Assembly: GCA_026983735.1 (NCBI GenBank)
Contig: JALSTN010000197.1
Coordinates: 1-47,917 of the forward strand
Source: Saprospiraceae bacterium
GTDB lineage: Bacteria > Bacteroidota > Bacteroidia > Chitinophagales > Saprospiraceae
Reading direction: 5' to 3'
DNA: 47,917 bases
Shown here: in pieces, positions 1 to 10,764 of the stretch
Position numbering within the stretch: the first letter of the stretch is position 1
Layout: each line of letters begins with the position of its first letter
Notes under the pieces: generated by a model
Seen by the model: the letters and a program-made list of their open reading frames with translations, nothing else
What the model was told of the DNA's origin: nothing
Database searches by the model: none
Position numbers and translations under genes: made by a program

Positions 1-105
1 TAAAGCGGTAGAAGGCTTCATAAAAATAACAGGAGAAGAGGGAACAGCATTTTTAAGTTCCTTGGCGTGATTGATGTAATTGCGGCCTATACAGAATATT
101 TTCAC
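1..105 (-). CDS. Fumarylacetoacetate hydrolase family protein (N-terminal part, runs off window)
   Basis: This is a partial gene at the left edge, read leftwards. The first 35 codons translate from a GTG at 105-103 and include the stretches [16 protein letters not shown] and [11 protein letters not shown]. They match the conserved N-terminus of the FAH family (acylpyruvate or fumarylpyruvate hydrolases and related isomerases), where the typical pattern is CIGRNY..HA.E and P.IF.KP. No in-frame ATG lies just upstream. GTG puts the usual 'MKI-CIGRNY' start in place, so I choose it. A good -7 box lies about 45 bases upstream. The catalytic metal-binding acidic residues lie outside the window, so the exact substrate cannot be judged. 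Family assignment is fairly secure. Confidence 0.8.
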
Positions 106-148
106 AAGCTTAGGTTTTTGTACAACAATGATTTTAAAACAAGGTAGG

Positions 149-156
149 CAAAGATA
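149..156 (-). promoter_or_regulatory. Bacteroidota -7 box (TATCTTTG) for the FAH-family gene
   Basis: Read on the minus strand this is TATCTTTG, an exact fit to the Bacteroidota TAnnTTTG -7 element. Transcription would start near 141-144, giving a leader of roughly 37 bases before the GTG start at 105. No clear -33 TTTG box was found. Confidence 0.5.
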
Positions 157-303
157 AAAAAATTCCCCCTATCTCAGGGGGGACGGCTCTTCAAAATCGT
201 ATTCTAAAACTCGCATTCTGAGATAGATGCTCCAAACCGGGTCTGTACCCTTCACAAGAAATACGGAATAAAACAGGATGAAAGCCTGTCGGATTAGCCA
301 ATA

Positions 304-337
304 GAAAAGCCCCGAAATATGCATTCCGGGGCTTTTC
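304..337. terminator. Bidirectional terminator-like hairpin between the FAH-family gene and purM
   Basis: The arm GAAAAGCCCCG (304-314) pairs perfectly with CGGGGCTTTTC (327-337) around a 12-base loop. The A-run before and T-run after the GC core make it a plausible intrinsic terminator on either strand. Between 106 and 464 I see only this hairpin, a weaker C5/G5 hairpin at 165-182 and the two promoters. Confidence 0.6.
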
Positions 338-437
338 ATGAGGTTGATTTAACAGTTGCAGCTTAATAGCAGCAAAAAGTTCGATTTCGTTTTCCGTCTT
401 TACAGGTGCAAATGATGTGCCAAACTTTCTTTTTTCA

Positions 438-445
438 TACCTTTG
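438..445 (+). promoter_or_regulatory. -7 box (TACCTTTG) for purM
   Basis: TACCTTTG fits TAnnTTTG and lies 20 bases before the purM start at 465. The 5' UTR would therefore be only about 12 bases. No convincing -33 TTTG was seen. Confidence 0.5.
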
Positions 446-464
446 TCTCCATAACTAATAATGC

Positions 465-1646
465 ATGACAGAGAAGAGCAAGTATGAAATGCGGGGTGTT
501 TCCGCTACCAAATCAGAAGTACACGATGCCATCAAACACCTGGACAAAGGCTTGTACCCCACTGCATTTTGTAAGATTTTACCGGATATTGTCGCCGGTG
601 ATCCTGACTTTTGCAATATCATGCATGCAGATACCGCCGGAACAAAAACAAGCCTGGCCTATATGTATTGGCGCGAGACCGGGGATATGTCTATCTGGTC
701 AGATATCGTTCAGGATGCCATCGTGATGAATACGGACGATATGGGTTGTGTAGGCTGTGTTGACAATATCGTCATTTCCTCTACGATAGGACGCAACAAA
801 CACCTTATATCAGGTGAGATAATCGCAGCACTCATTCGTGGAGCCTCTTCCTTTTTTGAAGGTATGAAATCGTTGGGTGTAGGAATTCATTTAGCCGGCG
901 GAGAAACTGCGGACGTTGGGGATATTGTTCGAACACTAGATGTAGGATATACCACCTTTGCCCGGATGCGAAAGGAGGCATTGGTCATTAATACTATTCG
1001 CCCCGGTGATGTCATCGTAGGTCTTTCTTCCTCCGGTCAGGCAAGCTATGAAACACGTTATAACAGCGGCATCGGTAGCAATGGACTCACTGCTGCACGT
1101 CATGATGTCTTAAACAAACAGTATCGCTCCAAGTACCCCGAAGCCTTTGACCCCAATACGCCCGAAGCCTATACTTTTACCGGAAGTCGATCTCTGCTGG
1201 ATAAAGTCAAGACCGATTATGGCACTTTTACCGTAGGCCAATTGCTGCTCTCCCCGACCAGAAGTTATTTGCCATTGCTCAAAAAAATCCTGGATGCCGC
1301 TCAAGATAAAATCCACGGAATCATTCATTGTACGGGAGGTGGCCAAACCAAAGTATTGAAGTTTGTTGATCAGGTCCATATCATCAAAGACCAATTGATG
1401 GATATCCCGCCGGTCTTTCAACTCATTCAAGAAGAATCCGGAACTTCCTGGCAAGAGATGTATCAAGTATTCAACATGGGACATAGACTAGAGTTTTACC
1501 TCGATGAAAAAGAGGCTTCTACCCTTATCGATATCGCAGCCTCTATGCATGTGGATGCCCAAATTATAGGTCGGGTAGAGAAAGCCGAGAACCGTCATCT
1601 CACTATCCAATCCCCCTATGGAACCTTTCAATATTCAGAAGGATGA
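465..1646 (+). CDS. purM: Phosphoribosylformylglycinamidine cyclo-ligase (AIR synthase), Bacteroidota type
   Basis: PurM makes aminoimidazole ribotide from formylglycinamidine ribotide with ATP, a cytosolic step of purine synthesis. The 393-aa protein has the long Bacteroidota form. Visible landmarks are MHADTAGTKTSLAYMYW (about residue 53 on), NTDDMGCVG, SSTIGRNKH, the GGETADVGD motif (about 145) and MGSNGL-like GIGSNGLTAARHD. The C-terminal half includes HCTGGGQTKVL and YQVFNMGHR, both typical of the AIR-synthase C-domain. An ATG at 461 opens only a short frame, so 465 is the start. The gene overlaps the next by ATGA, which suggests translational coupling. Classical PurM is about 345 aa; the extra length is usual in this phylum. 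Confidence 0.93.
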   Translation: MTEKSKYEMRGVSATKSEVHDAIKHLDKGLYPTAFCKILPDIVAGDPDFCNIMHADTAGTKTSLAYMYWRETGDMSIWSDIVQDAIVMNTDDMGCVGCVDNIVISSTIGRNKHLISGEIIAALIRGASSFFEGMKSLGVGIHLAGGETADVGDIVRTLDVGYTTFARMRKEALVINTIRPGDVIVGLSSSGQASYETRYNSGIGSNGLTAARHDVLNKQYRSKYPEAFDPNTPEAYTFTGSRSLLDKVKTDYGTFTVGQLLLSPTRSYLPLLKKILDAAQDKIHGIIHCTGGGQTKVLKFVDQVHIIKDQLMDIPPVFQLIQEESGTSWQEMYQVFNMGHRLEFYLDEKEASTLIDIAASMHVDAQIIGRVEKAENRHLTIQSPYGTFQYSEG

Positions 1647-1930
1647 GTACCCCCCCAATAAAAGATGAAGACCTTATCCTCCTGTATTACTCCGGAGCAT
1701 TGGATGACCTTACGCGCCAATCTGTTGAAGAAAGAGCCAAAAACGATCCAAAATTCGGAGCATTGTTCCAACTTTATAAAATAGAATCTTCTGATAGTTT
1801 AAATTTTCCTACTATGCCAAATATCAAATTCACTCCTCCCGACCACAAAAAACCCAAACCCCGATACAATGTACTTATTATTCTCATCTTGTTATTAATC
1901 CTGGTTCTAGCCATTTTATTCTTCTTATAA
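1643..1930 (+). CDS. Small tail-anchored membrane protein with degenerate anti-sigma-like N-terminus
   Basis: This 95-aa protein begins inside the purM stop codon (ATGA overlap). The first 50 residues (pattern L-LYYSGALDD-RQSVEERAKNDPKF) resemble the N-terminal helices of many Bacteroidota anti-sigma factors, which usually read 'L-Y-G-L---E---VE--L--D'. The zinc-binding His/Cys residues of the ZAS fold are absent. A proline-rich linker (about 55-75) leads to one C-terminal membrane helix (about 76-95, nearly all Ile/Leu/Val). It is therefore probably a cytosolic domain anchored by its tail. No sigma factor lies directly beside it; the nearest is the ECF gene at 2893. The gene looks real, but its function is unknown. 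Confidence 0.6.
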   Translation: MSTPPIKDEDLILLYYSGALDDLTRQSVEERAKNDPKFGALFQLYKIESSDSLNFPTMPNIKFTPPDHKKPKPRYNVLIILILLLILVLAILFFL

Positions 1931-1941
1931 TCACCCTAAAT

Positions 1942-1968
1942 CCCGTTTAAACAGCGGAAGGTGGGGGG
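1942..1968 (+). repeat. Interspersed GTTTAA-CAGCGG repeat, copy 1
   Basis: This copy has CCCGTTTAAACAGCGG followed by AAGGTGGGGGG. It aligns with a shorter copy at 2101-2125 and, more closely, with a reversed copy at 43221-43249. It lies just after the small membrane-protein gene. It is probably one member of a genome-wide intergenic repeat family. Confidence 0.45.
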
Positions 1969-1998
1969 TTTACCAACGGATTTGATGTAGAATATATC

Positions 1999-2026
1999 GT
2001 AGAGACGGGAGGTTTCCCGTCTCTAC
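1999..2026. repeat. Perfect palindromic element (12-bp arms, GGTT loop)
   Basis: GTAGAGACGGGA (1999-2010) and TCCCGTCTCTAC (2015-2026) are exact reverse complements around four bases. Palindromes built on GTAGAGAC...GTCTCTAC are common as dispersed REP-like elements in bacterial genomes. There is no T-run, so a terminator is less likely. Confidence 0.6.
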
Positions 2027-2100
2027 AGGATGGTTTATTTGAACACCAGGATTTGGTTTCAAATAAATTGGAAACGCCATTAGGGGAGGGCCTTGGAACG

Positions 2101-2125
2101 CCGTTTAAACAGGGGGCGGCAAGGG
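2101..2125 (+). repeat. Interspersed GTTTAA-CAG repeat, copy 2 (divergent)
   Basis: CCGTTTAAACAGGGGGCGG followed by CAAGGG shares the first 14 bases with copy 1, then diverges into another G-rich stretch. Confidence 0.35.
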
Positions 2126-2619
2126 AAACCAGGGGATAAAAAAAAGGCCCGAATTCACACTACTGCAAATCCAGGCTCTTCGACTAAGGTCTCAAAATAA
2201 GAAAACTACTTCTTTGAGTCTATAATAAACGAAACGCTACTCGTTTCTACACTCTTTTAGAATATGAACATGGGTATTATCGGTGGGATATTAAAGGGTT
2301 AAAAAATCTTACTTTCCACCCTTTAACGGCGTAAAGGTACAAAAAGTTTTATGTTACGAAGAAAAATAATATATCTTTTTTTATAATTTTTAAGTAATAA
2401 GCTTATAACGGGTTATCACTCAAGGAGGGGGGACGCAAAGCAAAATAAAAAATGCCAATCCCAGGGGATTAACGATCTGAGCATTGGGATGCTTATCGGG
2501 GTATGGGGAAACCTTATAAATAAAGGGAGGACAGATAAAAGGGAATAACTTCCAAAAGGATTCTTTAGCGAAATTTGTATTTTTTCAGGGAAAGCGGGCA
2601 TTAATTCCTACAAAGCCTC

Positions 2620-2627
2620 TATCTTTG
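2620..2627 (+). promoter_or_regulatory. -7 box (TATCTTTG) for tRNA-Leu
   Basis: TATCTTTG lies 14 bases before the mature 5' end of the tRNA, leaving a short 5' leader of a few bases for RNase P to remove. It is an exact TAnnTTTG match. Confidence 0.6.
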
Positions 2628-2641
2628 CACTCCGATTTTAT

Positions 2642-2730
2642 GCCCAGATGGTGAAATTGGTAGACACGCAAGGTTGAGGGCCTTGTGCTCGATTTAGGGC
2701 GTGCAGGTTCGACTCCTGTTCTGGGCACCA
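2642..2730 (+). tRNA. tRNA-Leu (anticodon GAG)
   Basis: The acceptor stem GCCCAGA/TCTGGGC is followed by discriminator A and an encoded CCA. The anticodon arm CAAGG-TTGAGGG-CCTTG gives anticodon GAG (2675-2677 region), which reads CUC and CUU. A long variable arm and the T-arm GCAGGTTCGACTCCTGT fit a class II leucine tRNA. It stands alone, not in a tRNA cluster. Confidence 0.95.
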
Positions 2731-2892
2731 TTTTCCTTCCTTTTTTTAAATACTGACCCAACCCATTTAATTTTTTTTCAGTCTATACATCAGAGCATTG
2801 GGAAAAAAGTCCTATTTTGTGGTGTAATTACTTCAAAGCCAAATTAAATGGATGAATCAGCTAGTCGTTATTAGCAGATTGATGTAGCGGGT

Positions 2893-3435
2893 ATGACCAA
2901 AAAGAAAGACATACTGGAACTTATCGAAGGGTGCAAGCAAAATGACCGCCGCGCACAGGAGGCTATTTATCGGTTGTATTTCCCAAAGATGTTTGGGATG
3001 TGTATGAAGTATTTAAAAGAGGAAAACAAGGCTATTGAAGTATTAAATGATGGATTTATGCGTGTTTTTCAAAAGGTGGACACCTTTGGTTTCAACGGTT
3101 CATTTGAAGGGTGGGTACGAAGGATCGTCTATCGCTGCATCATGGATCATTTTAACCGACATTCGAATTACAAAGAAAATGTCTTATTGCAAGAGCATGA
3201 AAAGCAAACCAATGAAACCGCCTTGGATAAGCTGTATTCCGAAGATCTGTTGACATTGGTACATGCATTGCCACCACAAGCACAGCGAGTCTTCCGGCTT
3301 TTTGCGCTTGAGGGATTTAGTCATAAGGAAATAGCAGACCAACTCCAAATAAGTGTTGGGACTTCCAAATGGCTGTACTCCAATGCACGTCAACGCATGC
3401 AAAAATTAGTACAACAAAACGGCTTATCTCTATGA
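2893..3435 (+). CDS. ECF-type RNA polymerase sigma factor
   Basis: This 180-aa sigma-70 family protein has only regions 2 and 4, the extracytoplasmic-function layout. Region 2 (about 20-95) includes RLYFPKMFGMC, LNDGFMRVFQK and SFEGWVRRIVYRCIMDHFNR. Region 4 (about 120-175) includes LPPQAQRVFRLFALEGFSH followed by KEIADQLQISVGTSKW, the -35-binding helix-turn-helix. It should direct RNA polymerase to a stress or envelope regulon. Its stop overlaps the start of the next gene (ATGA), so the two are made together. The partner looks like a trans-envelope anti-sigma factor that would hold this sigma factor inactive. The regulon itself cannot be read from the window. Confidence 0.9.
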   Translation: MTKKKDILELIEGCKQNDRRAQEAIYRLYFPKMFGMCMKYLKEENKAIEVLNDGFMRVFQKVDTFGFNGSFEGWVRRIVYRCIMDHFNRHSNYKENVLLQEHEKQTNETALDKLYSEDLLTLVHALPPQAQRVFRLFALEGFSHKEIADQLQISVGTSKWLYSNARQRMQKLVQQNGLSL

Positions 3436-4784
3436 GAAAACAACAATCCTATAATCGACTGCCCGTAGATAAGGGCTGGGAAAAGATGCAGGTATTGCTG
3501 GATCAAAATATGCCTGTTGCAAAATCCGATAAACGGAAAAAATGGCTATACTTATCCTTGCTTGTACTCCTTCTAATATCATTAAGCGGGGGTGTCTTCT
3601 ATTGGTATTTCCCGAAAGAACACATACCACCTTCCCGTCCTTCCATTTCCTCCGATCGAATTGAATCTCCATTATTTCTCCGTAGTATACCGAAGACCTC
3701 AACCTTCGAAAAAAGCCATTCTTCTGCTCCTACTACCGAAACTTCTACTCAAATACCTCCTTCGACAAATAAGCCAATAACCTCTGTCAAACAAACGATT
3801 CTCAGAAACTCCGATTCGTACTCAAATAAGCTAGATGACCAAGCCACTGCTCTGTCAGTTAAATCAAAAGTTCTTTCTACAAGAACTAATAAAAGTACTT
3901 TCTCTACCTCAAAGAAAGTCGCTTCACTTGTGCTGTCTACCGAATCAAAACAATCCTCCCACATTTCATCCTCTAGCACCGTGGTTCCTATAAATACCCT
4001 TAAGTCAACCATTTCATACCCCAAAAAAATAATCCATACTATCCAGCCCACCATCATCAATACTCCATCGCGACTATCTATATCAAAGAAACCGATATTG
4101 GCAGTGCATGTCGGTTATACGGGGATTGAACAAAAAGGGGGATGGGCTGGAATGAGCTATGATAAAAAATTAAATGACAGATGGGCGTGGACTACGGGTT
4201 TGGAAGTAGCCGGTTTGTACAATAAAAACTTGCTTCACACCAGTACAATACGTCAAGAGCAGTTCGAAATATATCCCGGACCAATATTGCCTCACAATAA
4301 TCCGCCAACTTCAACCAGAAATCAAGCATATGAGTATCAAAGGGAGAGCCTGAACACCACAAAGACACTTTCCGAAACGCTTCACTCAGGTATCCGTTAC
4401 CGATGGACTCCCCATACTACCTTAAGTATCGAAGGGGTACTTACTGCTTATCAATATAAAATAGCCTATATGGAAAACTTCGTATTGACAGATCCAGAAC
4501 AAATTAATCAACAGGTAAATAGTGATGTCTTACCTTCCTTCACCCTGCTCTATCCCGAACGCGACCTAAAAGACAAGGGCGTCCTGGCCGGTCTACAAGC
4601 GGGTATTTCACAAAAACTTTTCAACCGCTTGCATCTATTCCTACACGGAAAGTGGTTAAGACCTATTGTACCAAATTCCAAGACATCCCTTGATAACGGA
4701 AGGGTTGTTCAACCCAATAATACGCCGTACCAACCTGATTTGCTCAACGTCTCGTTAGGTCTAAGTTATCATTTTACTTTGTAG
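3432..4784 (+). CDS. Probable dual-membrane-spanning anti-sigma factor (Dma-like)
   Basis: I start the gene at the ATG at 3432, which overlaps the sigma-factor stop, rather than the in-frame ATG at 3369 deep inside that gene; this gives 450 aa. The layout has four parts. Residues 1-37 are a charged cytosolic segment with VDKGWEKMQVLLDQNMP, a motif common in Bacteroidota proteins next to ECF sigma genes. One membrane helix follows (about 38-60). Residues 61 to about 213 are a Ser/Thr/Lys-rich low-complexity stretch. Residues 215-450 alternate beta strands in beta-barrel style and end in a terminal aromatic/leucine strand (SLGLSYHFTL). This matches anti-sigma factors of Bacteroides that reach from cytosol to outer membrane. 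Barrel formation and sigma binding are inferred from layout, not shown. Confidence 0.65.
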   Translation: MRKQQSYNRLPVDKGWEKMQVLLDQNMPVAKSDKRKKWLYLSLLVLLLISLSGGVFYWYFPKEHIPPSRPSISSDRIESPLFLRSIPKTSTFEKSHSSAPTTETSTQIPPSTNKPITSVKQTILRNSDSYSNKLDDQATALSVKSKVLSTRTNKSTFSTSKKVASLVLSTESKQSSHISSSSTVVPINTLKSTISYPKKIIHTIQPTIINTPSRLSISKKPILAVHVGYTGIEQKGGWAGMSYDKKLNDRWAWTTGLEVAGLYNKNLLHTSTIRQEQFEIYPGPILPHNNPPTSTRNQAYEYQRESLNTTKTLSETLHSGIRYRWTPHTTLSIEGVLTAYQYKIAYMENFVLTDPEQINQQVNSDVLPSFTLLYPERDLKDKGVLAGLQAGISQKLFNRLHLFLHGKWLRPIVPNSKTSLDNGRVVQPNNTPYQPDLLNVSLGLSYHFTL

Positions 4785-5119
4785 ATTTATCGAAGAATTG
4801 TATTCATCTTAAGACCAAAGTATTAACACTATTTAGAATGGAAAGCCCTACGATCACAGTGTCGATACAAAATTAGCCATTTTACATTGTACTTATATCG
4901 CACATAAGAGATTAGACCTCCAATAAGGGTAAATGAAGGAGTTCTTAAATATAGTCAAATAGAAATACCAAAAATGGCTCAGCATCTAGCATGTTGTTTG
5001 GCTTAGGACGCTTTTCATTCCCCCATGTTGCATTTCAGCTGAATTAGCAGTAAAAATACGCGCTAAAATTCCCTAGGGGCAGCCATAGATTTGCATCTTT
5101 GCAGGCATAAATAAAAACT
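4785..5119. other. Intergenic gap without a recognised gene
   Basis: AT-rich sequence with no long frame, no strong hairpin and no repeat found elsewhere in the window. Only the tatD promoter region at its right end is interpretable. Confidence 0.4.
5086..5093 (+). promoter_or_regulatory. -7 box (TAGATTTG) for tatD
   Basis: TAGATTTG fits TAnnTTTG. A second near-match, CATCTTTG, follows immediately at 5094-5101. Both lie within 35 bases of the ATG at 5120. Confidence 0.45.
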
Positions 5120-5899
5120 ATGTTTGTAGATACACACACGCATCTGGATGCATCAAAATTTGAAGAGGATATAGATCTCGTGATCCATAATGCATTGGAA
5201 AAAGGAGTTGAGATTATGATGATGCCCAATGTCGACCCATCCACGCATCAGGGAATGATGTCTGTTCATATGAAATGGCCGGACAATTGCCTTCCTATGA
5301 TCGGGATACACCCATGCTCTGTAAAAAAAGACTTTAAAAGTCAAATCGAATGGGTCAAACGGGAAGTTGCATTGGGGAAATACTATGCGGTCGGGGAGAT
5401 TGGTATTGACCTGTATTGGGACACCTCCTTGAGAAAGGAACAAGAGGAGTGCTTTAGAAGCCAAGTAGAATTAGCAGCAAATCATCAACTTCCCGTCAAC
5501 ATTCACTCTAGGGAAAGTATCGATTTATGCATTGAACACATAGAGGATTTAAAGAAGTCAAATCCTGAACTCACCGGAATTTTTCATTGTTTTACAGGCA
5601 CGGCGGAGCAAGCGAAGCGAATAGTAGACATCGGTGGGTTTTTGATGGGTATCGGCGGAGTCTTGACCTTCAAAAACTCCAATCTCAAGGAAGCAATTCG
5701 GGAAATTTCCCTAGATTATATTGTTCTTGAGACAGATGCCCCTTATCTTACCCCACACCCTTACAGAGGCAAGCGCAATGAACCAGCATACATTCCATTC
5801 ATCGCTCAATCCTTGGCGGAGTTGTATGAATTGCCTCTTGCTGTAATTGAGGAGCGGACGACAGAAAATGCGTTGCGCATTTATAAATTAACCCACTAG
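5120..5899 (+). CDS. tatD: TatD family metal-dependent hydrolase / DNase
   Basis: This 259-aa protein of the amidohydrolase TIM-barrel superfamily has metal-dependent nuclease activity in characterised members (3'-5' DNA exonuclease or D-aminoacyl-tRNA-related roles). Metal-ligand motifs are in order: FVDTHTHLD (His6 and His8), GIHPCSV, AVGEIGID (the bridging Glu), LPVNIHSRES (His), GIFHCFTG (His), and LETDAPYLTPHPYRGKRNEP (Asp) near residue 205. Length and motif spacing are normal for the family. It stands alone between two intergenic gaps with its own promoter. The cellular substrate cannot be deduced here. Confidence 0.92.
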   Translation: MFVDTHTHLDASKFEEDIDLVIHNALEKGVEIMMMPNVDPSTHQGMMSVHMKWPDNCLPMIGIHPCSVKKDFKSQIEWVKREVALGKYYAVGEIGIDLYWDTSLRKEQEECFRSQVELAANHQLPVNIHSRESIDLCIEHIEDLKKSNPELTGIFHCFTGTAEQAKRIVDIGGFLMGIGGVLTFKNSNLKEAIREISLDYIVLETDAPYLTPHPYRGKRNEPAYIPFIAQSLAELYELPLAVIEERTTENALRIYKLTH

Positions 5900-6016
5900 C
5901 AATAAAGTCGGCGTCTAATATCAGAGTATCGTATAAGAGGGATTATAATTTAACCAGAATAAATTCAACTGTTCTATAGTATTAGGACAATAACCATGTG
6001 ATATCCCACGTATGAT

Positions 6017-6024
6017 TATCTTTG
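6017..6024 (+). promoter_or_regulatory. -7 box (TATCTTTG) ahead of the sugar-nucleotide/export gene run
   Basis: TATCTTTG lies 23 bases before the ATG at 6047. With gaps of only 12-23 bases or overlaps downstream, it could drive the six genes to recO as one transcript. Confidence 0.5.
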
Positions 6025-6046
6025 GGGGTACTAAAGAACGAAGAAC

Positions 6047-6988
6047 ATGTCAAAAACAGTCTTAATAACAGGAGGAGCGGGATTTATCGGCTCTCATTTA
6101 TGTGATCGATTTATAGAGGAAGGTTATACAGTCTATGTTATGGACAACCTGATTACGGGGACATTGGACAATATAGAGCATTTGTTTGGTCATCCTTCCT
6201 TCCGCTTTTATCACCACGACGTCAGCAATTTTGTACATATACCAGGACCTTTGGATTATATTCTACATTTTGCTTCTCCGGCCTCGCCTATCGATTATCT
6301 CAAGATGCCGATACAGACTTTGAAGGTAGGATCATTGGGGACACATAATTTACTTGGTTTGGCCAAGTCCAAGGGAGCGCGGATTCTCATCGCCTCAACA
6401 TCGGAAGTTTATGGGGATCCTGAAGTGCATCCTCAGACGGAGGAGTATTGGGGGCATGTCAACCCGATAGGGCCGAGGGGGGTGTACGATGAAGCCAAGC
6501 GATTTCAGGAAGCTATGACGATGGCTTATCACACCTATCACGGATTAGAAGTGCGGATAGTTCGTATCTTTAATACTTATGGACCCAAGATGCGATTAGA
6601 TGACGGGCGTGCGTTACCCAACTTTATGAGCCAGGCACTGAAGGGGGAAGACATCACTATATATGGAGACGGGAGCCAGACGAGATCCTTTTGTTATGTA
6701 GATGATCTAGTGGAGGGAATCTATCGCTTGCTACTGAGTGACTATAGCAATCCGGTAAATTTGGGCAACCCGGAAGAAATAACTATTTTGGATTTTGCCA
6801 AAGAGCTTATTGCCCTGACCGGAAGCCGATCTAAAATCGTTTATCGGCCACTTCCGGAGAACGACCCATTGCGCCGAAAGCCTGATATTACTCGAGCGCA
6901 AGAGATATTGGGGTGGTCTCCGGTCATTGGTCGGGGAGCGGGATTAAAAAAGACATTATCTTACTTTGAACATGCTGTAAAGGCATAA
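6047..6988 (+). CDS. UDP-glucuronate decarboxylase-like SDR epimerase (UDP-xylose synthase type)
   Basis: This 313-aa extended short-chain dehydrogenase has the NAD-binding Rossmann motif [11 protein letters not shown] at residues 8-18. The catalytic Ser/Thr lies in [10 protein letters not shown], and the YxxxK pair lies in GVYDEAKR. Signatures such as [11 protein letters not shown], the P-G-R-G-VYDE loop, RIFNTYGP and [18 protein letters not shown] match UDP-glucuronate decarboxylases, which make UDP-xylose from UDP-glucuronate. The neighbours are a dTDP-glucose dehydratase 15 bases downstream and a polysaccharide export protein, so the sugar probably enters an exported polysaccharide. It could be a related NDP-sugar epimerase, but the signature set favours the decarboxylase. 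Confidence 0.85.
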
Positions 6989-7003
6989 AATTATTCTACA
7001 ATT

Positions 7004-8068
7004 ATGACATCCTCAACTAAGAGAAAAGTACTTATTACCGGGGGGGCGGGATTTATCGGTAGCCATTTGGTCAGAAGAATGGTCAACAGGTATCCGGAAT
7101 ACGAAATATTCAATCTGGATGCATTGACCTATGCAGGTAATCTAGCAAACTTAAAGGATATCGAGTCGCAGCCAAACTACCATTTCATACGAGCAGATAT
7201 CAATGATTTTAAACAAATTCTCGAACTTTTCAAGACACACGTCTTTGATGGAGTTATTCATTTGGCAGCAGAGTCACATGTAGACCGGTCTATTACTGAT
7301 CCGCTTGCATTTGTACACACCAATGTACTAGGGACGATGCATTTACTGTATGCAGCAAAACAAGTTTGGGGGAAGAATTTTGAAGACAAGCGCTTTTATC
7401 AGGTATCTACTGATGAAGTTTACGGCAGTCTCGGGGATACCGGTCTATTTAGGGAAGATACGCCTTATGATCCCCGTTCCCCTTATTCAGCATCTAAGGC
7501 TTCGGCGGATCACTTTGTCAGGGCTTATTTTCACACTTATCATATGCCGGTGGTGCTGAGTAATTGCTCCAATAATTACGGTCCATACCAATTTCCTGAA
7601 AAGCTCATTCCTCTAGTGATTAATAACATCCTTCACCGTAGGAATCTTCCTGTATATGGAGATGGCACTAATATTAGGGATTGGTTGTGGGTAGAAGACC
7701 ATGCGGAGGCCATAGATGAGATCTTTCACCGAGGAATAACGGGAGAAACCTACAATATCGGAGGAAATAACGAAATGCAAAACATCGAGTTGGTGCGATT
7801 GTTGTGTGATATAACGGATAGGGCCTTAGGGAGGCCGGAGGGGCAAAGCCGCGAATTAATCACTTTTGTCAAAGATCGACCGGGACACGACCAAAGATAC
7901 GCTATCGATGCTTCTAAAATAAAGAAAGACCTCGGATGGGAACCAAGGACCGTACCCGAGGAAGGATTTGGAAAGACAGTGGAATGGTATCTCAAAAATG
8001 AATCCTGGCTCAAGGCGGTAACGAGCGGAGCGTATATGAAATATTATGAAAAGCACTACACTTCTTAA
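7004..8068 (+). CDS. rfbB: dTDP-glucose 4,6-dehydratase
   Basis: This 354-aa SDR enzyme converts dTDP-glucose to dTDP-4-keto-6-deoxyglucose, the entry to dTDP-rhamnose and other deoxysugars. Motifs are [14 protein letters not shown] near residue 12, LAAESHVDRSI, STDEVYGSLG (the catalytic Thr-Asp-Glu), YSASKASADH (Tyr and Lys), NCSNNYGPYQFPEKLIP, and RDWLWVEDH. These together are diagnostic of RmlB/RfbB. The partner genes rmlA, rmlC and rmlD are not in the window. It sits 15 bases after the decarboxylase and 17 before the export gene, so co-transcription is likely. A paralogous Rossmann start ([10 protein letters not shown]) in the two neighbours reflects shared family, not recent duplication. 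Confidence 0.93.
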   Translation: MTSSTKRKVLITGGAGFIGSHLVRRMVNRYPEYEIFNLDALTYAGNLANLKDIESQPNYHFIRADINDFKQILELFKTHVFDGVIHLAAESHVDRSITDPLAFVHTNVLGTMHLLYAAKQVWGKNFEDKRFYQVSTDEVYGSLGDTGLFREDTPYDPRSPYSASKASADHFVRAYFHTYHMPVVLSNCSNNYGPYQFPEKLIPLVINNILHRRNLPVYGDGTNIRDWLWVEDHAEAIDEIFHRGITGETYNIGGNNEMQNIELVRLLCDITDRALGRPEGQSRELITFVKDRPGHDQRYAIDASKIKKDLGWEPRTVPEEGFGKTVEWYLKNESWLKAVTSGAYMKYYEKHYTS

Positions 8069-8085
8069 ATAACGTCTGTCTAATT

Positions 8086-10764
8086 ATGTACAAGGTTATA
8101 GTATTCATCGTAGTTTTATTTTGCATTCCTACCACGTATGGTCAAACAATAGATGAAGACCTGATACACAAGGAACTCCAAGGGAGAAATATCGATGAAG
8201 AGGAACTTATGAAGCGGTTGGAGGCAAAAGGTGTGCACACGGATCAGCTCTCTGAATTGACGCCGGAAGAATTGGTCGATCTGAAAGGAGTAGTAGAAGA
8301 GACCGTCAAAGAGATGGAGGAGGAGAAGGATAAGACTCCTGTTTTATCAGAAACAGAGGTTCCTCCCCCGGTTAAAAAATCTCAATCAAACGTGGATAAA
8401 ACCCCACCTACCCAGACAGATCCGATTAAAAAAACAATTTCCAAAAAAGTAATTCCTGTCTATGGCAAATCTATTTTTACGGGGAGCCTTCCTCTATTTG
8501 AAAGGACGGATGACGCCAATGTCCCCGACCAGTATGTACTGGGATCAGGAGATCAAATCAGCGTTTCGATTTGGGGTATCTCACAATTGAATAGAAATTA
8601 TGAGATCAACTCTGCCGGATATATCCACCCACAAAAAATGCCAAGACTGTACCTAAAGGGATTGACCTTACTTCAAGCAAAACAACTGCTTCGGGACAAG
8701 TTTCGTCAATTTTATCCATTCAATAAACAAGAATTTGAAGTCTCACTTAACCATATAAGGACTATCACTGTACATATTTACGGCGAAGTCAATCACCCCG
8801 GAGGGTACAACATTCCGGCAACCAACACCGCTCTGAATGCTTTGGTTGCTGCCGGTGGGCCGGATTCGTTGGGTAGTATTAGAAAAATCACTTTAAACCG
8901 GGGGCAACAAAAAATAACAGTTGACATCTACAAATGGCTCGATCATCCGGAGTATGCATATCAACTCTATCTGAATGATAATGATGTCATTTATGTACCT
9001 GTGGCCAATCATATCGTGGAGATAAAAGGAGCCGTTTATAGGCCTATGCAGTATGAAATGGTAAAAGGAGAACAATTATCTGACCTATTGGGGTATGCAG
9101 GGGGATTGAAGCCTAATGCTTATCGAGAAAACATCAATATTACTCGTTATGAAAAGGGTAAAAAAATTATAAAGAGTATTCCTTGGACCCAACTTCAAAA
9201 AGAACATCGTGATTTTCAACTAATGCCGGGAGATCAAATCGAAGTAAAAACACTCAATGAGCTCGATAAGGAGCTGGTTAGCATCCAAGGTGCCGTAGAA
9301 TATCCGGGCAATTATGCCTGGACCCCTCAGACACATATTGCAGATATCCTGGACAAAGCAAAGCTATTAAAGCGAGCAAAGCTGGATATAGCTTATGTAA
9401 CGAGGTTCCATCCTGACAGTAGTTCTGAGATGATTAAAGTACGGCTTTCACCTGCGCTTTCTGACCCGGACGACAAGAATAACATCTTATTACTTCCCAA
9501 TGATTTGATTTCTATTCTGGATATGAAGAAATTAATGAAAGAACAGTATATTGAGATTATTGGCTCAGTATACCGACCCGGGAAATTACCGTATGACAAG
9601 AGTCAAAGTATGCGGGTATCAGATGCCATTTTTCTTGCTGACGGACTTAAAGATGATGCATTTAGCATCGCCTATATCGAGCGAAAAGATCCAAACGACA
9701 TCAATCATACCCAATACATCCGAATAAACATTCAACAAATCATGCAACAACCGGGAGGAAAGGATGATCTCATTTTGTATCCCAATGACCGGATCATCAT
9801 CGAGTCCAACGATCGATTTAAGGAAGATCAATTCTACAAGATATCAGGTGAAGTAAAGAATCCCGGGTCTTTTAAATACAGATCGGGCATGACAGTGGAA
9901 GATGCTATTCTCCAATCCGGAGGTTTGAGTCCATTAGCGGATAAGCGTAAAATTGAGATTTTTCGAGTCTCCCAAAATACTCGAAATCAAAAATTGACCT
10001 TAATGGTAGATGATAATTATCGGCCTATAGGCTCAAAAAATATAGAATTAATGCCTGATGATCACATTGTCGTTAGACGTCTACCCAATTACGCACAACA
10101 ACGCTTGGTGTTCATAAAGGGCGAGGTCAAATACCCGGGCGAATACGCATTGTCGAATCCTAACCTAAAACTGTCTGACATTATCGCAGAAGCAGGAGGA
10201 CTTACACAAGAGGCTTTTCCGGAAGGAGCATCTCTGTATCGTCAGAAAGACAGTTTAGGATTTGTAGTCATAAAACTCAAAGAAGCCTTATCAAAGCCTA
10301 GCTCTAGAAATAATATCTACCTGGCTGAACAAGATGTAATAAATATCCCGAAGAAAAAGGATTTAGTTACGATAGAGGGTGCCACCAATGCTTCAGAGGT
10401 GTATTTTGGTGGAAATATAGATAAAGGGAGTAGGATTTCCGTCCCATACTTGCCGGGGAAAAATGCTAAGTTCTACATCGATGAATATGCTGCAGGAATC
10501 TCCAAGAGAGGGAATAAAAACGATATTACGGTAATTGACCCCAATGGAAAAGTTAGCCATACGGTCAACTACTTATTCTTCAAGAAATACCCAAAAGTAA
10601 GAAAAGGGTCTGTCATAAGAGTAGGTTATAAAGTTACCAAAACAAAAAAATCAAATGGAAAAGAGAAGAAATTTGATTGGGAGAAAGTAGCAGATAACAC
10701 ATTGAGACAAGTGACGACAATACTCTCATTGGTCATACTTGCGAAGTCCGCTTCTTCTTTGTAA
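8086..10764 (+). CDS. Large multi-SLBB polysaccharide export protein (Wza/GumB family)
   Basis: This exported 892-aa protein starts with a signal peptide (to about GQ, residue 20). An acidic region with E-rich helices and a Pro/Lys linker follows (about 20-125). Next is the polysaccharide-export domain, recognisable from YVLGSGDQISVSIWG (about 150). Then come about six SLBB repeats, each beginning with a strand like GEVNHPGGY, GAVYRPMQY, GAVEYPGNY, GSVYRPGKL, GEVKNPGSF or GEVKYPGEY and ending near an 'AGGL' turn. A hydrophobic segment (about 873-889) lies at the C-terminus. Wza itself is about 380 aa with two SLBB units, so this is the long form common in Bacteroidota. It probably forms the outer-membrane or periplasmic export channel for the polysaccharide made by its neighbours. 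No chain-length kinase (Wzc) is visible here. Confidence 0.85.
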   Translation: MYKVIVFIVVLFCIPTTYGQTIDEDLIHKELQGRNIDEEELMKRLEAKGVHTDQLSELTPEELVDLKGVVEETVKEMEEEKDKTPVLSETEVPPPVKKSQSNVDKTPPTQTDPIKKTISKKVIPVYGKSIFTGSLPLFERTDDANVPDQYVLGSGDQISVSIWGISQLNRNYEINSAGYIHPQKMPRLYLKGLTLLQAKQLLRDKFRQFYPFNKQEFEVSLNHIRTITVHIYGEVNHPGGYNIPATNTALNALVAAGGPDSLGSIRKITLNRGQQKITVDIYKWLDHPEYAYQLYLNDNDVIYVPVANHIVEIKGAVYRPMQYEMVKGEQLSDLLGYAGGLKPNAYRENINITRYEKGKKIIKSIPWTQLQKEHRDFQLMPGDQIEVKTLNELDKELVSIQGAVEYPGNYAWTPQTHIADILDKAKLLKRAKLDIAYVTRFHPDSSSEMIKVRLSPALSDPDDKNNILLLPNDLISILDMKKLMKEQYIEIIGSVYRPGKLPYDKSQSMRVSDAIFLADGLKDDAFSIAYIERKDPNDINHTQYIRINIQQIMQQPGGKDDLILYPNDRIIIESNDRFKEDQFYKISGEVKNPGSFKYRSGMTVEDAILQSGGLSPLADKRKIEIFRVSQNTRNQKLTLMVDDNYRPIGSKNIELMPDDHIVVRRLPNYAQQRLVFIKGEVKYPGEYALSNPNLKLSDIIAEAGGLTQEAFPEGASLYRQKDSLGFVVIKLKEALSKPSSRNNIYLAEQDVINIPKKKDLVTIEGATNASEVYFGGNIDKGSRISVPYLPGKNAKFYIDEYAAGISKRGNKNDITVIDPNGKVSHTVNYLFFKKYPKVRKGSVIRVGYKVTKTKKSNGKEKKFDWEKVADNTLRQVTTILSLVILAKSASSL

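Follow-up and report, generated by a model that had tools for sequence, protein, structure and literature searches.

The analysed DNA is a stretch of 47,917 nucleotides from a Saprospiraceae bacterium (Bacteroidota; GenBank assembly GCA_026983735.1, contig JALSTN010000197.1, positions 1 to 47,917), referred to here as the window. The host genome assembly comprises 3.32 Mb in 314 contigs. At positions 2893–4784, where an earlier note had placed an extracytoplasmic function (ECF) sigma factor followed by an anti-sigma open reading frame (ORF), both ORFs were found, and the first was identified as a sigma factor by Pfam (Sigma70_r4_2, E = 1.9e-13; Sigma70_r2, E = 4.1e-9). Judged by its sequence, this is a sigma/anti-sigma gene pair. 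The anti-sigma ATG at 3432 lies inside the 3′ end of the sigma gene with a 4-base overlap (ATGA), and the stop codon is at 4782–4784. The ORF listing also holds a longer frame of 471 aa from an upstream ATG at 3369; the start at 3432, giving 450 aa, is the most likely one. A tRNA-Leu gene precedes the pair (2642–2730) and the gene at 5120, 3′ of it, was taken by eye as TatD-like, so the unit looks two-gene. The features of the locus are listed in Table 1.

Table 1. Features of the sigma/anti-sigma locus, in positions of the window
Feature	Positions	Strand	Basis or remark
Conserved promoter-like block GCATTGGNAAAAAAGTCNTATTTTGTG, candidate autoregulatory promoter	2795..2821	+	Common to the L002 operon (same genus)
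ECF sigma factor, 180 aa	2893..3435	+	Pfam Sigma70_r2, Sigma70_r4_2, Sigma70_ECF and NCBIfam TIGR02937, all above cut-off
Probable Dma-type anti-sigma factor, 450 aa	3432..4784	+	ORF, start overlapping the sigma stop; predicted structure
Residues 1–37, cytosolic putative sigma-binding segment (helix 10–26)	3432..3542	+	Conserved W16, M19, L23, P28
Residues 34–59, predicted inner-membrane helix	3531..3608	+	AlphaFold2 helix; KSDKRKK just before
Residues 60–217, predicted disordered Ser/Thr-rich periplasmic tether	3609..4082	+	pLDDT <50 over most
Residues 218–450, predicted eight-stranded outer-membrane beta-barrel	4083..4781	+	AlphaFold2, VIA-align, family PF13568 matches
Residues 441–448 SLGLSYHF, candidate BAM-type C-terminal beta-signal	4752..4775	+	Motif match in last strand

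The structure of the anti-sigma factor was predicted with AlphaFold2 from the window protein and 20 of the 69 complete proteins encoded downstream of related sigma factors (see below), which were hand-picked for an LLD-EMP motif. A WEKM--LLD--MP segment, a membrane helix and about 150 residues of Ser/Thr-rich disorder had been claimed before, and all three were recovered. The N-terminal motif reads GWEKMQVLLDQNMP; across an alignment of 21 sequences W16, L23 and P28 are invariant and M19 is conserved in at least 90%. The single predicted transmembrane helix contains the hydrophobic run WLYLSLLVLLLISLSGG, and the basic residues just before it would orient the helix with its N-terminus inside under the positive-inside rule. 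An NCBIfam FliL match of the protein (E = 0.028, far under the cut-off) was rejected as an artefact of this helix. Predicted local distance difference test (pLDDT) values were below 50 at residues 60–99, 101–107 and 112–206. Serine or threonine occupies 52 of the 146 positions in residues 60–205, and the S+T content of the tether is 35%.

The C-terminal part was predicted as a barrel with main strands at residues 222–231, 234–246, 251–264, 300–324, 329–352, 383–395, 400–411 and 437–449, and with two short extra strands within loops (274–278 and 369–373). This agrees with the eight-strand barrel that had been proposed for residues 215–450. The pLDDT reached at least 90 for 103 residues of the model. 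The top ten Foldseek matches were all outer-membrane proteins, and the highest VIA-align Z scores were obtained with a designed membrane barrel (17.8), OprF (17.4), OmpA (16.7), OmpW (16.0) and NspA (15.9). The strands are connected in order by 2, 4, 35, 4, 30, 4 and 25 residues: the three turns of 4 residues are found at the end of the barrel where both chain termini lie, and the 2-, 35-, 30- and 25-residue loops at the opposite end. With the N-terminus of the domain in the periplasm, the 4-residue turns would be on the periplasmic side and the long loops would point outward. OmpA-type proteins have short periplasmic turns and long outward loops.

The last strand carries a motif of the kind recognised as a C-terminal beta-signal by the beta-barrel assembly machinery (BAM). 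Among 72 family proteins, a set that includes at least one duplicate locus (L050 = L017), the motif was present in the final 16 residues of 28, while shuffled sequences gave a mean of 6.1 and a maximum of 15 (1000 rounds); internal 16-mers matched in 101 of 1728 cases. PF13568 was detected at E ≤ 0.01 in 14 of the 21 family members, the window protein not being among them, and the family profile matched Opa60, TbuX and CymD (E 3.5e-4 to 5.8e-4). When the barrel profile was run against the 25 frames of at least 200 residues in the window, the single match was the anti-sigma factor, itself one of the 21 profile rows. Domain order and barrel fold are predictions of the model, and insertion of the barrel into the outer membrane is inferred.

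Matches were obtained in 19 of the 60 genomes searched (own genome included), with 22 loci in total. One of these is the window, and L022, whose weak match covers only the linker and contains stop codons, was set aside. In the 20 other loci, all in genomes of the same family, a sigma frame was found upstream by profile without exception, and the gene arrangement is therefore not due to chance. The anti-sigma start overlaps the sigma gene by 4 bases in 2 and by 11 bases in 10 of the 19 loci compared. With the anti-sigma factor alone as the query, the named genomes gave 65 pattern-matching stretches and no confirmed relatives.

The closest comparison was with the orthologous pair in a genome of the same genus (L002), whose sigma factor groups with that of the window on the sigma tree and is 79% identical to it. 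Within the anti-sigma factors, identity was 20/37 for residues 1–37, 6/21 for the membrane helix, 31/137 aligned residues for the tether (with 21 gaps), 43/124 for the barrel strands and 24/105 for the barrel loops. By these alignments, the tether is conserved as length and composition more than as sequence. It spans 158 residues in the window protein and 83–164 (median 118) in the 21 family proteins. With polymer constants and a periplasm width of 20–30 nm as background, stretched lengths were estimated at about 30 nm for 83 residues and about 57 nm for 158 residues, and the relaxed size at about 7–11 nm. By this calculation even the shortest tether could bridge the periplasm, only if extended beyond its relaxed size. 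Much longer anti-sigma factors (603–928 residues) were seen in Taibaiella and relatives (L055, L057, L060, L061, L062, L064), which form the sigma clade nearest that of the window; their tethers measure very roughly 290–620 residues, far above the need for crossing the periplasm.

For a wider survey, a sigma alignment of 17 sequences was used to collect 80 loci across Bacteroidota (the best 80 of 581). The frame directly 3′ of the sigma gene was picked in 74 loci; three more had such a frame but no early ATG in it, and three ran off the contig. In 74 of the 77 readable loci, the W-motif and a membrane-like segment followed the sigma factor. The exceptions were L039 (helix below threshold), L101 (without the motif) and L079 (an unrelated protein). 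Saprospira grandis (L067) is a named relative that carries a similar pair. The window protein and the 69 complete downstream frames were scanned with Pfam, and PF13568 was found in 35 and PF13505 in 16 of these 70 proteins (E ≤ 0.01, overlap possible). The N-terminal profile of the window clade matched that of 12 barrel-bearing anti-sigma factors, mostly from Bacteroidales/Marinilabiliales records (hhalign 94.6%). In nine loci (L072, L073, L080, L085, L091, L104, L109, L111, L115) a W..I..L segment, judged by eye, appears in tandem before the membrane helix; such tandem segments possibly bind more than one sigma factor.

Short anti-sigma factors of 132–306 residues accompany a sigma factor of the same family in L075, L087, L103, L108, L110, L111, L114, L115 and L116. 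No full barrel was seen in these proteins, and L110 could represent a barrel gene that has been truncated. The short form needs at least four changes on the sigma tree, which suggests that the outer part of the anti-sigma factor has been lost or gained repeatedly.

The genome of the window itself contains 16 PF08281 matches. Five further sigma factors in it are followed by proteins of similar architecture, on contigs C150, C54, C194, C276 and C237 (L026, L027, L028, L031 and L034). Two of these pairs (C194 and C54) were confirmed with the barrel profile and the other three were judged by eye; a Pfam barrel was found for C194 alone and weakly (E = 0.007). Three of the five anti-sigma frames are cut by the end of the locus. 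On contig C174 of the same genome (L033, 1724–2392), an ECF sigma factor is followed by a 223-residue membrane-helix protein with a C-terminal domain and no Pfam match.

The order of parts in the window protein agrees with the published description of the Dma anti-sigma factors, the dual-membrane-spanning type to which the earlier note had likened it. According to PMC13088901, Dma proteins consist of an N-terminal sigma-binding segment, a transmembrane helix, a disordered tether and a C-terminal beta-barrel, and PMC9308784 likewise describes a trans-periplasm anti-sigma factor with an outer-membrane barrel. As in Dma1/Das1 and Dma2/Das2, compared here by published description, an ECF sigma factor stands beside an anti-sigma factor with the same four parts, here predicted or, for the sigma-binding segment, putative. 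A single helix, a long tether and a C-terminal barrel are all predicted in the window protein; Dma proteins have an ECF21-family sigma factor alongside, and the adjacent sigma factor here is ECF by Pfam. Since these three features are present by prediction and no defining Dma feature was tested and found absent, the window pair is likely of Dma type. It differs in coming from Saprospiraceae and not Bacteroides, and in appearing as a two-gene unit, whereas dma2 lies in a three-gene operon (PMC13088901).

A similar likeness holds for EcfO/Reo (the ecfO-reo name is used in PMC13114119) and for M0N98_03761/03760 of Phocaeicola vulgatus, in which a sigma factor is followed by a large anti-sigma factor predicted to cross the periplasm into an outer-membrane barrel. 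Those systems belong to gut Bacteroidales and have envelope- or oxidative-stress phenotypes, whereas the window pair is known from sequence alone. By prediction, the window protein shares with OmpA and OprF the barrel fold, the short turns on the chain-end side and the C-terminal beta-signal. It differs from them in lacking a Pfam OmpA domain and in its N-terminus, which is predicted to run through the tether into the inner membrane in place of a cleaved signal peptide.

The spacer preceding the sigma gene has diverged from that of L002 except for a 27-base block common to the two (local alignment score 72, against at most 36 over 200 shuffles). Allowing up to 3 mismatches, each of the two genomes of the genus holds a single copy of the 24-base core of this block; the reversed-pattern control gave no hits, and the 27-base pattern was found at no other site within the window. 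Among the loci of the sigma search with enough upstream sequence, only L079 matched within 8 mismatches; it needed all 8, a level that its shuffles reached as well. The block may be the operon's own promoter and is a candidate for recognition by the ECF sigma factor.

Taken together, the window pair is very probably a Dma-type sigma/anti-sigma system, in which the sigma factor would be held in the cytosol by a chain whose barrel sits in the outer membrane. Residues 1–37 would keep the ECF sigma factor sequestered at the inner membrane, on its cytosolic side; the chain would cross that membrane once and then the periplasm as the disordered tether, and BAM would insert the eight-strand barrel into the outer membrane. 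An event at the outer membrane, whether damage, ligand binding or failed insertion of the barrel, could alter the barrel or expose the tether. The anti-sigma factor would then be lost, most likely because its tether and membrane segment are cut; once free, the sigma factor would transcribe an envelope regulon together with the operon that encodes it. Sigma binding (by residues 1–37), outer-membrane insertion, proteolytic release, autoregulation and the signal are what we infer, partly by analogy with characterised relatives. Among sequestration, barrel signal and proteolysis, only the barrel has structural support, in the form of a prediction.

The logic of this mechanism is supported by published relatives. 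According to PMC9308784, interrupting the barrel-bearing anti-sigma factor of P. vulgatus leaves the sigma factor active and lengthens the O-antigen. When the cells are attacked by BcpT, the sigma gene goes up 33-fold, which fits autoregulation. In PMC13088901, Dma2 acts through Das2 in Bacteroides thetaiotaomicron by genetics.

Several results weigh against the Dma-type reading. The 20 relatives behind the AlphaFold2 prediction are just 13–19% identical to the query; the model has a mean pLDDT of 62 and a predicted template modelling score of 0.46, with high confidence limited to parts of the barrel and the membrane helix. The window anti-sigma factor by itself gave no Pfam match (E ≤ 1). The designed barrel mFAP (6ohh), which we take to be soluble, aligned at Z 15.3, among the membrane barrels, so a fold match by itself is no proof of membrane insertion. 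Over 21 pairs, sigma distances correlated with those of the barrel at r 0.63 and less well, at r 0.37, with those of the short N-terminal segment. All four anti-sigma regions correlate with the sigma factor, the barrel most (Mantel p 0.0005 to 0.021), and coevolution therefore singles out no N-terminal sigma partner and was not used for binding. A search of the genome that allowed up to 3 mismatches gave no second site of the promoter core; with the core unique to this operon, no regulon can be named.

Some of these points would suit a single-membrane anti-sigma factor whose C-terminal domain is a soluble periplasmic barrel (lipocalin- or YceI-like) sensing a periplasmic ligand. Besides 6ohh, the VIA-align matches included PsbO chains (9.7–10.5), VtrA/VtrC (9.7) and a YceI-like protein (9.2), presumably soluble as well, and the missing Pfam match leaves the window protein without an outer-membrane family of its own. 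The natural membrane barrels, however, scored 15.9–17.4, well over the natural soluble ones; the asymmetry of turns and loops and the beta-signal suit an outer-membrane protein, and both the PF13568 hits in relatives and the profile matches to Opa60, TbuX and CymD point the same way. A soluble C-terminal domain, the outcome which the earlier note had set against its own proposal, is accordingly disfavoured, and we regard it as improbable.

The second protein could also be a tethered structural outer-membrane protein with no regulation of the sigma factor. Its cytosolic segment, a putative sigma binder, has just about 37 residues, and the sigma distances do not follow the N-terminal segment best. 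Against this stand the ATGA overlap of the two genes, the sigma frame in every other family locus, the N-terminal segment as the best-conserved part of the chain, and the genetic restraint of a sigma factor by the Phocaeicola protein (PMC9308784) and action of Dma2 through its sigma factor (PMC13088901), which together make a purely structural role very improbable. Least probable of all is FecR-type cell-surface signalling, with an inner-membrane anti-sigma factor signalled by a separate outer-membrane receptor. Many FecR-type systems occur in Bacteroidota, and the window sigma factor matches TIGR02985 below threshold (83 bits, cut-off 126). The anti-sigma factor, unlike that of FecR/FecI, has no FecR domain at E ≤ 1 in Pfam and has a predicted barrel of its own, and no receptor gene was recognised beside the pair, by eye, among ORFs of at least 90 aa at window positions 1–9000 (upstream neighbour scanned). 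That upstream region also holds a gene for a 95-residue protein with a hydrophobic helix at its C-terminus and without a Pfam match (1643–1930, forward strand), which overlaps the 3′ end of an AIR synthase-related gene (465–1646).

In nine of the 80 Bacteroidota loci (L081, L082, L083, L088, L094, L097, L099, L112, L118), of which L083 is from Crocinitomix catalasitica, the anti-sigma factor, encoded 3′ of the sigma gene at about 3500–4700 of the locus, has an N-terminal segment, a membrane segment and a long tether, followed by a type IX secretion system (T9SS) type B sorting domain that replaces the barrel. PF13585 was above the cut-off in all nine (barely in L082); TIGR04131 was found in all nine at E ≤ 3e-4 and above the cut-off in four. 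These pairs resemble the window pair in sigma family, membrane segment and long disordered tether, and differ from it in the sorting domain; the window protein matches neither PF13585 nor TIGR04131. Their N-terminal segment matches that of the 12 barrel-bearing anti-sigma factors (hhalign 98.7%), with no direct match to the window clade's own profile (2.6%). Their sigma factors form one group on the sigma tree, requiring one change (support 98/55; 89 in a tree rebuilt with a quick method).

Within the order of L118, to which Crocinitomicaceae belong, the N-terminal segment of this type was matched in 83 of 150 genomes. All 32 loci examined there had the sigma factor upstream, and 31 had the T9SS domain when scanned with a profile built on the nine loci. 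With three members of this training set left out, the domain is present in 28 of the other 29, these 28 being the best-scoring new loci and not a random sample. The locus without the domain is L122, a second one in the genome of L118. SprA was found in 147 of the 150 genomes, and at this near-universal level the presence of the T9SS says nothing on whether these anti-sigma factors depend on it.

An AlphaFold2 model of L088, made with the other eight sequences, has a confident C-terminal domain (pLDDT 88–95 at residues 291–380); residues 36–250, the membrane helix included, are below 50. Foldseek returned generic immunoglobulin-like matches, with PorU and PorZ present and not ahead. Among the matches listed for literature on anti-sigma factors with type IX secretion or CHU_C, no title or abstract described an anti-sigma factor with a T9SS domain. 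The architecture of these pairs is supported, and they are a more novel and more surprising lead than the window pair.

Gut bacteria already provide examples of the single-chain design from outer membrane to cytosol, in which one chain predicted to lie in both membranes could carry a signal from the outer surface directly to the genes. The window pair is a further, environmental case of it and is well supported; together with the other loci of its family and phylum, it suggests that the design extends beyond gut Bacteroides. The exchange of the sensing end, from a barrel to an apparent type IX secretion domain with the sigma family and N-terminal segment retained, gives a testable idea; if the exchange is borne out, such anti-sigma factors could be readouts of outer-membrane assembly and type IX secretion. 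It is conceivable, though in our view rather doubtful, that across the phylum the outer end of such single-chain anti-sigma factors is a client of a delivery machine (BAM or T9SS) and that the sigma factor reports on delivery. As speculation, failed insertion or export would leave the tether exposed, the anti-sigma factor would be destroyed and repair genes would be switched on.

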